A stretch of DNA of 64,000 nt from assembly GCF_000784835.1 (NCBI RefSeq), contig NZ_JSFH01000011.1, positions 62,001 to 126,000 of the forward strand, written 5' to 3'. Positions 31,672 through 34,380 of the stretch are shown here, in pieces. The notes beneath the pieces were generated by a model, which was not told where the DNA came from, ran no database searches, and saw nothing but the letters and a program-made list of their open reading frames with translations. This stretch comes from Thermotoga sp. Mc24. GTDB lineage: Bacteria > Thermotogota > Thermotogae > Thermotogales > Thermotogaceae. The number at the start of each line of letters is the position of its first letter. Positions within the stretch are counted from its first letter, which is position 1. Both the position numbers and the translations under genes were made by a program.

Positions 31672-31701
31672 AAAAAAAAGCGGAGGGAAGACCTCCGCTT
31701 T
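31672..31701 (-). terminator. Intrinsic terminator of tRNA-Leu
   Basis: On the minus strand AAAGCGGAGG (31692-31701) pairs with CCTCCGCTTT (31677-31686) around a five-base loop, followed by a T-run (31672-31679). It lies four bases after the encoded CCA and before the glycosyltransferase ribosome site. Confidence 0.88.
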
Positions 31702-31705
31702 CTGC

Positions 31706-31792
31706 TGGTGCCGAGGGCGGGACTTGAACCCGCACGGGGAAACCCCCACATGATCCTGAGTCATGCGCGTCTGCCAGTTCCGCCACCTCGGC
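31706..31792 (-). tRNA. tRNA-Leu(CAG)
   Basis: An 87-base type II tRNA with encoded CCA (31706-31708). Acceptor GCCGAGG pairs with CCTCGGC, discriminator A. Anticodon arm CATGA-CTCAGGA-TCATG gives anticodon CAG for CUG codons. A long variable arm (GTGGGGG-TTT-CCCCGT region) and T-loop GTTCAAGTC are present. Confidence 0.97.
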
Positions 31793-31810
31793 ACTCCTCT
31801 CCGTTCAGAT

Positions 31811-31839
31811 AGTTTAGCACCTTCTTCCGCGAGCGTCAA
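31811..31839 (-). promoter_or_regulatory. Promoter of tRNA-Leu
   Basis: Minus strand: TTGACG (31834-31839), 17-base spacer, TAAACT (31811-31816). The predicted transcript starts ~13 bases before the tRNA. The -35 element overlaps the last codon and stop of the MMPL exporter gene. Confidence 0.75.
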
Positions 31840-33038
31840 GAGTTTTCCCTCTTTTCCAGTATCATAGGCTGGACGATCAGCGTGAAAACAGCCCCAACCC
31901 CTATCCCAAGCATCATGAGTAGAGATATGTTTTTAAAGAGTGCGAGTTCAGAGAAGAGAAGAACGGCGAATCCCGAGATCAATCCCAGCGCGTTTGTGAG
32001 AACAGATGGTCCCACGTTCTTGACCACAAGGTACGGATCTCTCAGCCTCTTCTCTTCCGAAGCAATGTGAATGGAATAATCTATCACAAGACCCATGAGA
32101 ATACCGGAGGTGATCGATGTTGACACATCCAGACTGATCCCAAAGAGGGCCATGAACAGGAAGTTGAACACCGTCGTGAAAGCGATTGGAACCATCACAC
32201 TGAGTGTGGTGAGCGGTCTTCGGAATATGATGAAGACCATGGCAAAGATCAGAACTGAAGCAATGACGATGCTCTGTATCTGTGATTTCATGATGCTTTC
32301 GTTGATATCGTCCCAGATCAGAACGGATCCCGCCACATAGTGTGACCAGCCCGTTTCGCTCATCACTTTGTTGATCAGATCTACCACTTTTTTCACATGT
32401 TCGTATCCTTCCGGTGTGAGATTGACGATCAACCTTATCCTGTTTCTATCTCCGATGAAGGTCTTGAGAAACGGGTTCGTTCTGGAGAGCGCGTACATTA
32501 TCGGAACGGGAATATCCACAGGAAACACCACACTGGAGACGTACTCGCTCTTTTCTATCTTTTCGATTAGCTCTTTCAAGGTCTTGGAATCCGTCCCAAC
32601 GAATGGAACAGTTTTCTCCAGCACCAGATAGATCGGCTCTCTCGTGTTGAACTTTTCCACGATGAGGTCGTAAGCTTTTCTGAGTTCGGAATCCCTGTCG
32701 AAATAAGACACCATATCCGAACCCACCTGTACTCTTTTGAGCAGAAACGGTGAAAGAACCGCTATCACCAGGAAGACAACGAGGACGATCAGAGCGATCT
32801 TTCTTCCCACGTACTTCATACCAAAGTTCCTCGGAGTTCTCTTTGGAGTGTAGTTTCTGAAGATCTCCACACCGGATGTGAATATCACAAGAACCACAAC
32901 AGCGAGTCCGGAAGAAACCAGAATTCCGAGTTCTCTGAACGCCCTTATATCGATGAAGACGAAAGACATGAATCCCGCTGCGGTGGTGAGCATCGAAAAA
33001 AGTATGGGTTTGAAGATGTGTTTTACCGCCTCTTTTTT
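31836..33038 (-). CDS. MMPL/RND-type exporter, C-terminal part (-1 frame)
   Basis: This is the second half of an MMPL/RND transporter. From ~33038 the frame reads EAVKHIFKPILFSMLTTAAGFMSFVFIDI, a classical MMPL segment that continues the N-terminal half without a gap. It then has a large outside domain (GSDMVSYFDRDSELRKAYD ... LVLEKTVPFVGTDS) and a closing block of five hydrophobic segments with a GILMGLVIDYSIHIASEEK motif. The first ATG (32993) lies in a transmembrane segment and has no ribosome site, so independent initiation is unlikely. Expression should depend on a -1 shift at 33032-33038, giving a 674-residue protein. Otherwise the locus is a pseudogene or carries a base-calling error. 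Confidence 0.8.
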   Translation of the reverse strand, partial: KKEAVKHIFKPILFSMLTTAAGFMSFVFIDIRAFRELGILVSSGLAVVVLVIFTSGVEIFRNYTPKRTPRNFGMKYVGRKIALIVLVVFLVIAVLSPFLLKRVQVGSDMVSYFDRDSELRKAYDLIVEKFNTREPIYLVLEKTVPFVGTDSKTLKELIEKIEKSEYVSSVVFPVDIPVPIMYALSRTNPFLKTFIGDRNRIRLIVNLTPEGYEHVKKVVDLINKVMSETGWSHYVAGSVLIWDDINESIMKSQIQSIVIASVLIFAMVFIIFRRPLTTLSVMVPIAFTTVFNFLFMALFGISLDVSTSITSGILMGLVIDYSIHIASEEKRLRDPYLVVKNVGPSVLTNALGLISGFAVLLFSELALFKNISLLMMLGIGVGAVFTLIVQPMILEKRENS

Positions 33039-33859
33039 TCACTGAACCTGAACAGCGCGTTGTAGAAGTGAAGCCCGTACGCAGAGCCGATGATGAGGAG
33101 AAAGGTGATGGTCATCACGGTCATGGTGTTGAGGCTCTTTCCCATAGCGAAAAACACAGCGAACACAAAAAACGTGGACAGCACAGGAACCATCAAAGAA
33201 AAGAGTGCTGCTCTGAAGGATCTCAGCTGGTAGTAGAAGAGAAGAAAGATCACAAGAAACATGAAAATAGGATAAACGAAAGTCTGCCTCACCAGCTCTT
33301 TGAAAAGAGCGCTGTCTATCACTGGTTCACCAAACAGGTAATTTTTCTCGAAGTAGCCGGACACGAGACTTTTTATCTCGGGTATTTTGTCCCTTGCGTT
33401 GACACCTTCTTTGAATATCACGTTCAAAAGCGCGTACTTCCCATCTTCTGTGATGAAACTCTTCGCGTTCGGGTCATTCAAAACGTCGTTTGAAATTTTC
33501 CCATCTTTGAAGTAATAGTCCATTCTGAAACCAGAAAACCTTGGAAGGTTCACGGGACTCATAACACTCGAGATGTCTTCTCTTTTTTCCAGAGCCTCGT
33601 GGAGTTCGTACAGAGCCCTTGCGTCTTCGAAGAAGTTCTTATCACCTTCGACAACGATCACAATCGAGGAACTTCCGCCGAACTCCCTGTTCACACGAAA
33701 GAGGTTCTTCACGTTTTCGTTCGTGGTCTTTTCAGGATCTCCATTGTAACCTGGAAGGAACACCTCAGGACCGGTCTCTATCTTTCCAAGAGAAAAAACA
33801 ACAAGGAACGAAAGGAAAACCAGCACCACGTATATTGTGGTGAAGAAGTACCTTCTCAT
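33023..33859 (-). CDS. MMPL/RND-type exporter, N-terminal part (0 frame)
   Basis: 278 residues. MRRYFFTTIYVVLVFLSFLVVF is the first membrane helix. An outside domain follows with NRTFGG-like FRVNREFGGSSSIVIVVEGD and DYYFKDG. Then come membrane helices from ~200 (YPIFMFLVIFLLFYYQLRS, VPVLSTFFVFAVFF) and TITFLLIIGSAYGLHFYNALFRF, the paired MMPL motif. The frame stops at TAA 33023 four codons after a run of seven A. ATG 33859 is one base after the marR stop, so the two genes are co-expressed. RND/MMPL proteins use the proton gradient to export lipids or drugs; the substrate is unknown. Confidence 0.83.
   Translation of the reverse strand: MRRYFFTTIYVVLVFLSFLVVFSLGKIETGPEVFLPGYNGDPEKTTNENVKNLFRVNREFGGSSSIVIVVEGDKNFFEDARALYELHEALEKREDISSVMSPVNLPRFSGFRMDYYFKDGKISNDVLNDPNAKSFITEDGKYALLNVIFKEGVNARDKIPEIKSLVSGYFEKNYLFGEPVIDSALFKELVRQTFVYPIFMFLVIFLLFYYQLRSFRAALFSLMVPVLSTFFVFAVFFAMGKSLNTMTVMTITFLLIIGSAYGLHFYNALFRFSEKKRR
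33032..33038 (-). other. Slippery heptamer A AAA AAG, candidate -1 frameshift site
   Basis: Zero-frame codons are GAA AAA AAG AGG CGG TAA. Slipping back one base at A AAA AAG gives AAA AAA GAG GCG GTA and joins the two halves of the MMPL gene. This heptamer is the same as the E. coli dnaX frameshift site. I see no clear strong downstream stem-loop. Confidence 0.55.
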
Positions 33860-33860
33860 G

Positions 33861-34289
33861 CTACCTTCCCTCCCTCGACAAGGCTTCCACCATTCGATTG
33901 AATCCTTCGCTCACCACTTTGAGATCTTCCTCGGAAAATTTCTCAAGAACACTTTTCAAAAGACTTTCGAAGTTCGAAAGAATCTCTTCGAAGATTTTCT
34001 TTCCCTTTTCGGTCAAGACCACCCGGTACGTTCTTCTATCAACAGGGTCCATCTCTCTGACGACCAAGCCTCTTTTCTCCAGAGAATCCACCACGTTCGT
34101 TACGTTGCTCTTCGTTGTGGAAAGAAACTCCGCTATCTCCTTCATCTTTTTTGGACCGAAGAGAGCCACGTAGAGGAACGCGTAGAGCTCCGTTGTTTTC
34201 ATGTCAGAGACCTCCTCGTTCGATGGAAGATAACTGGAAAACCTCATCACGAGCGAAAAGAGTGTTCTGAATATCTCCAGAGCATCCAT
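33861..34289 (-). CDS. MarR-family transcriptional regulator
   Basis: 142 residues from ATG 34289, chosen for GGGGTGA upstream (an earlier in-frame ATG would translate it). Winged helix: MKEIAEFLSTTKSNVTNVVDSLEKRGLV (in parts, ~55-85) and the wing MDPVDRRTYRVVLTEKGKKIFEE, with the highly conserved DRR. Flanking helices provide dimerisation. It is the first gene of a marR-MMPL operon and divergent from a MATE exporter. Two GTTC-N7-GAAC sites overlap the two promoters, so it likely represses both and responds to a substrate of the pumps. Confidence 0.92.
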   Translation of the reverse strand: MDALEIFRTLFSLVMRFSSYLPSNEEVSDMKTTELYAFLYVALFGPKKMKEIAEFLSTTKSNVTNVVDSLEKRGLVVREMDPVDRRTYRVVLTEKGKKIFEEILSNFESLLKSVLEKFSEEDLKVVSEGFNRMVEALSREGR

Positions 34290-34313
34290 ATCTTCACCCC
34301 CCATTTTTTGACA

Positions 34314-34380
34314 GTTCAATTATAGAACAGTTCAATTATTTTACCAAATGGTTCACCATCCGAACTATTTGTTGTAGAAT
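34314..34380. promoter_or_regulatory. Divergent marR / MATE promoters with paired candidate MarR operators
   Basis: Minus (marR): TTGGTA (34342-34347), 17 bases, TATAAT (34319-34324). Plus (MATE): TTCACC (34352-34357), 17 bases, TAGAAT (34375-34380). Site 1, GTTC-N7-GAAC at 34314-34328, covers the marR -10. Site 2, the same pattern at 34351-34365, covers the MATE -35. A direct repeat of AGTTCAATTAT (34313 and 34329) adds a half site between them. The promoter and motif calls are read directly; binding by MarR is inferred. Confidence 0.62.

Follow-up and report, generated by a model that had tools for sequence, protein, structure and literature searches.

A one-base contraction of an A-run very probably explains the split MMPL transporter gene of Thermotoga sp. 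Mc24 and its slippery-looking heptamer

Introduction

In E. coli, slippage at the heptamer A_AAA_AAG depends on a sole tRNA-Lys (UUU) together with stimulators. The heptamer is the frameshift site of E. coli dnaX (PMC5009743). Where two lysine tRNAs are present, the AAG-cognate tRNA is expected to pair tightly, and this may bear on the use of transcriptional slippage at dnaX in Thermus (PMC5009743). E. coli shift-prone heptamers that lack stimulators reach levels only 2–10 times above a background of ~0.05% (PMC4066793). Slippage of the RNA polymerase on poly-A is a second known route to a restored reading frame, e.g. at the A11 run of Citrobacter tssM with ~20–25% (PMC4256274), and it has been described in endosymbiont genes as well (PMC5009743). 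The run length cited for this process is n>7 (PMC3711429), and the bacterial cases in the papers cited here use longer runs (A9–A11). A frame break can also mark an ordinary pseudogene formed by contraction of a homopolymer.

The gene considered here belongs with the MMPL (PF03176) and HAE3-like RND transporters, of which 5khn and MmpL4 (9b43) are solved examples. It lies in a 64,000 nt stretch of the Thermotoga sp. Mc24 genome, called the window below. An earlier note had described the gene as an MMPL/RND exporter split at a dnaX-like slippery site and had listed programmed frameshifting, transcriptional slippage, a pseudogene and a homopolymer error as possible causes. The locus was compared with homologues from eight relatives: six other Thermotoga species, one other genus of the family and one distant MAG. 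Codes G001–G006 and G010 refer to genomes of these relatives and G000 to the Mc24 genome.

Results

The MMPL gene and its frame break

The features of the locus, in window coordinates, are:

33861–34319, minus strand: MarR-family regulator gene, immediately upstream of the MMPL gene
33023–33859, minus strand: N-terminal MMPL fragment, an open reading frame of 278 codons and TAA, with TM1, an extracytoplasmic domain and TM2–TM4 (hydropathy)
33033–33039, minus strand: A7 run; G004, the closest relative, has A8 here and the other species have no run
33032–33038, minus strand: zero-frame heptamer A AAA AAG, probably the residue of one A lost from GAA AAA AAA G
33023–33025, minus strand: early TAA stop that results from the frame break
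31836–32993, minus strand: C-terminal MMPL part, read in the −1 frame; 385 aa when counted from the first ATG, covering the start of TM5 to the end
31700–34200, no strand: tract ~99% identical to G004, with flanks of ~93%; edges approximate

On the minus strand the sequence at the break reads TTC AGT GAA AAA AAG AGG CGG TAA. The earlier note placed the stop four codons after the A7; the premature stop is present, but the distance is slightly shorter, the AAG being followed by two codons and then TAA. In the −1 frame, reading can continue from immediately past the A-run as far as 31836. Its first possible start is the ATG at 32993, and no SD-like sequence is found ahead of this codon, which bears out the statement that the downstream half has no ribosome site. 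The whole MMPL span, 33859–31836, is 2024 nt, and one added base gives 675 codons (674 aa and a stop). This calculation, also made in the note, agrees with the intact G004 copy of 2025 nt and 674 aa.

From the hydropathy profile, the frame is lost in the first half of the transporter, within the TM4–TM5 loop. Because the break falls here, the 278-aa product is no natural half-transporter. One base separates the end of the MarR-family regulator gene from the start of the MMPL gene, and from this spacing the two probably form one operon. TM4 of the first half (residues ~260–263) carries GSAYGLHF and lacks the Asp of the matching second-half site, GLVIDYSIHI; the GSAY form is common to all aligned homologues.

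Assignment as an MMPL gene is confirmed for both fragments, which match Pfam MMPL (PF03176) at 2.2e-06 (N-terminal, 27.3 bits) and 1.9e-15 (C-terminal, 57.1 bits). The intact G004 homologue, with its two MMPL-type halves, matches at 7.5e-28 (97.9 bits). All three scores are above the Pfam gathering cut-off of 20.5 bits, used here as the threshold for membership. The intact homologue is similar in sequence to 5khn, but with the HAE3 model TIGR00921 it scores 154.3 bits, under the curated cut-off of 351.9. What also sets the Mc24 gene apart from other MMPL/HAE3-like transporters is the frame broken between TM4 and TM5.

Homologues at the break site

Of the homologues, that of G004 is the closest to the Mc24 gene (98.9% identity), and it is open in one frame. 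It has A8 where Mc24 has A7 and reads SEKKEAVKHIFKP in the single 674-aa frame; in the 60 bp around the A-run the two sequences are otherwise identical. The N-terminal Mc24 fragment shares a 99.6% identity with residues 1–277 of the intact G004 protein, and the C-terminal part 99.0% with residues 290–674. Apart from the lost base, the two genes differ by 22 substitutions, 18 of them synonymous and 4 not, which are too few for separating decay from constraint.

More distant homologues are also continuous, and they have no slippery run at the site. The corresponding codons are GAT AAA AGA GAG in G006, GAC AGA AAA GAG in G005, GAT AGA AAA GAA in G003, GAT AAG AAA GAG in G002 and GAC AAG AGA GAA in G010. 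The distant MAG (45% identical, the sole match to a genome contig) has GAT AAT AAT GAA. All eight homologues are thus open in one frame through the break point; none has the two-frame arrangement with the slippery heptamer, and the heptamer is not conserved. The earlier note had named continuous A8 genes in the relatives as the sign of an error or a mutation in Mc24. Continuity at the break point is what was found in every relative, with A8 itself in G004 only, and the pseudogene-or-error branch of that note is upheld.

The G001 gene, open at this position, is broken elsewhere. A one-base loss at the position of G004 nt 1592 ends the G001 open reading frame at 536 aa. This loss is independent of the Mc24 lesion and is outside any homopolymer.

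Surroundings of the gene

Identity between Mc24 and G004 in the MMPL region is ~92–93%, but rises to ~99% over ~31.7–34.2 kb of the window. The likeliest reading of this pattern is that a tract of ~2.5 kb holding the MMPL gene was recently exchanged with a G004-like lineage. Since the gene sits in the recently exchanged tract, the loss of the A probably came after the exchange. Over the part of the genome compared, identity between Mc24 and G004 is bimodal, with a mode at ~92% and about one quarter of the 1-kb windows at 98% or more. The Mc24 genome is a mosaic with respect to G004, suggestive of extensive recent homologous exchange.

The heptamer and lysine tRNAs in Mc24

Counts were made over 1,539 open reading frames (1.61 Mb) of the Mc24 genome. 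The zero-frame A_AAA_AAG is found 190 times, and codon-shuffled sequences have 194 on average (range 163–214). It is neither avoided nor enriched, as expected if the heptamer is not very shifty in Mc24. Runs of A7 or longer number 362 in the sense strand of the open reading frames.

At the MMPL site, the 70 and 100 nt that follow the heptamer fold like shuffled sequence (z = −0.51 and +0.31). No clear SD-like stimulator was seen by eye upstream of it, only AGG. Two tRNA-Lys genes are found in the genome:

G000:C12:276340–276415 and G000:C8:58493–58568: the two tRNA-Lys genes, UUU and CUU

The tRNA-Lys(UUU), which could re-pair with AAA, is thus not the sole lysine tRNA, as it is in E. coli. 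Since tRNA-Lys(CUU) is encoded beside it, A_AAA_AAG slippage of the dnaX type is disfavoured anywhere in the Mc24 genome.

Other one-base breaks in the assembly

The Mc24 assembly is a draft of 12 contigs and G004 is a single contig. The two were compared in both directions over ~0.8 Mb of coding DNA, with 960 kb of G004 (about half of the genome) included. Mc24 shows two internal 1-nt breaks, in the MMPL gene and in the reverse gyrase gene, and the reverse test gives a similar number of broken open reading frames in G004. A/T runs of 5–7 are balanced, 7 being shorter and 6 longer in Mc24. When G/C runs are pooled with A/T runs of at least 8, Mc24 has the shorter run in 7 cases and the longer one in a single case.

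G000:C4:118308–121615, minus strand: reverse gyrase gene (locus L206), break at 118644, A7 to A6

With this contraction, ~100 residues are lost from the C-terminal end of the topoisomerase domain; A7 is present in both G004 and G006. If the reverse gyrase break is not an assembly error, it is a very surprising loss for a hyperthermophile.

An apparent third break at C4:136758 (G6 to G5, in a RemA-like gene) was dropped, as the RemA-like profile match begins past the G-run. The G-run is thus probably part of the ribosome-binding region that precedes the RemA-like start. Several other candidates were upstream extensions or antisense shadow open reading frames.

Discussion

The frame break in the Mc24 MMPL gene is an ordinary one-base frameshift, and with high confidence we attribute it to a one-base contraction with no programmed recoding. 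The ancestral state would be a continuous 674-codon gene for an MMPL/RND-type transporter downstream of the MarR regulator. Its A8 run (GAA AAA AAA GAG) would have become A7, by DNA polymerase slippage on the A8 if the mutation is real, and the reading frame would now end after codon 278, between TM4 and TM5. The slippery-looking heptamer would be a by-product of this change. The A AAA AAG at the site needs no explanation of its own, because GAA AAA AAA G minus one A always leaves the heptamer. The locus resembles other homopolymer-contraction pseudogenes in being one base off the A8 of G004, in having relatives that are continuous in frame, and in the presence of another lineage-specific break, that of G001. 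The only difference is that the remaining run, by chance, looks like a slippery site.

A programmed −1 ribosomal frameshift in the manner of dnaX, yielding products of 278 and 674 aa, is very improbable and is rejected. The earlier note was correct that A AAA AAG, a heptamer of the X XXY YYZ form and the same as in E. coli dnaX, precedes the stop in the zero frame (33038–33032), and the −1 frame can be read up to the natural gene end. However, no relative examined conserves the heptamer, its genome-wide frequency is that of chance, and it has neither a downstream stem-loop nor a clear SD-like element. Mc24 also encodes a second lysine tRNA (CUU), for which tight pairing with AAG is expected (PMC5009743), and E. 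coli shift-prone heptamers that lack stimulators shift only 2–10 times above background (PMC4066793). A further difference from dnaX is that in the MMPL case the ancestral protein corresponds to the frameshifted product and not to the short one. It is also improbable that an exporter of the MarR operon is tuned by a genuine A7 allele with useful low-level −1 slippage in spite of the cognate tRNA-Lys(CUU), or by a tract that switches on and off between A7 and A8. Transcriptional slippage adding one A to some of the transcripts, and so partly rescuing a real A7 lesion, has precedent in the poly-A rescues of Citrobacter tssM and the endosymbionts, but we consider it improbable here. The A7 run does not exceed the n>7 limit and is short of the runs usually cited, and strong slipping at A7 would be costly to a genome with 362 such runs in its open reading frames.

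The two origins of a contraction are closer in probability. The A7 may be a base-calling or assembly error, the strain being truly A8 with an intact gene and the draft having lost one A. The lesion is in a homopolymer of a 12-contig draft, and the lean of the longer A/T runs and the G/C runs toward the shorter state is in the direction of undercalling. This origin keeps its weight because the assembly also contains a reverse gyrase gene broken through a homopolymer contraction. On the other hand, Mc24 has two breaks over the ~0.8 Mb of coding DNA compared, about as many as the single-contig G004; we therefore reject a general burst of homopolymer errors, and the A/T runs of 5–7 are balanced. 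The break in G001 also argues against an error. Real dispensability is favoured because G001 has independently broken the same gene, at a non-homopolymer site; with a background of a few broken open reading frames per 800, a given gene would, by a rough estimate, have a probability of a few per cent of being broken as well in one or more of six other genomes. From this second break the MMPL gene looks dispensable. An undercall is a reasonable second choice. Our first choice, held with modest confidence from the comparison of sequences, is a real and recent mutation, probably a null mutation, in a dispensable gene.

Outside annotation, the MMPL case is of little consequence. It illustrates that a slippery heptamer beside a frame break is not to be read as recoding until relatives have been compared. 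The Mc24 draft may carry homopolymer undercalls, reverse gyrase being broken in a like manner. For the organism itself, both tRNA-Lys species and the lack of avoidance of A_AAA_AAG suggest that slippage of the dnaX type is weak in Mc24.
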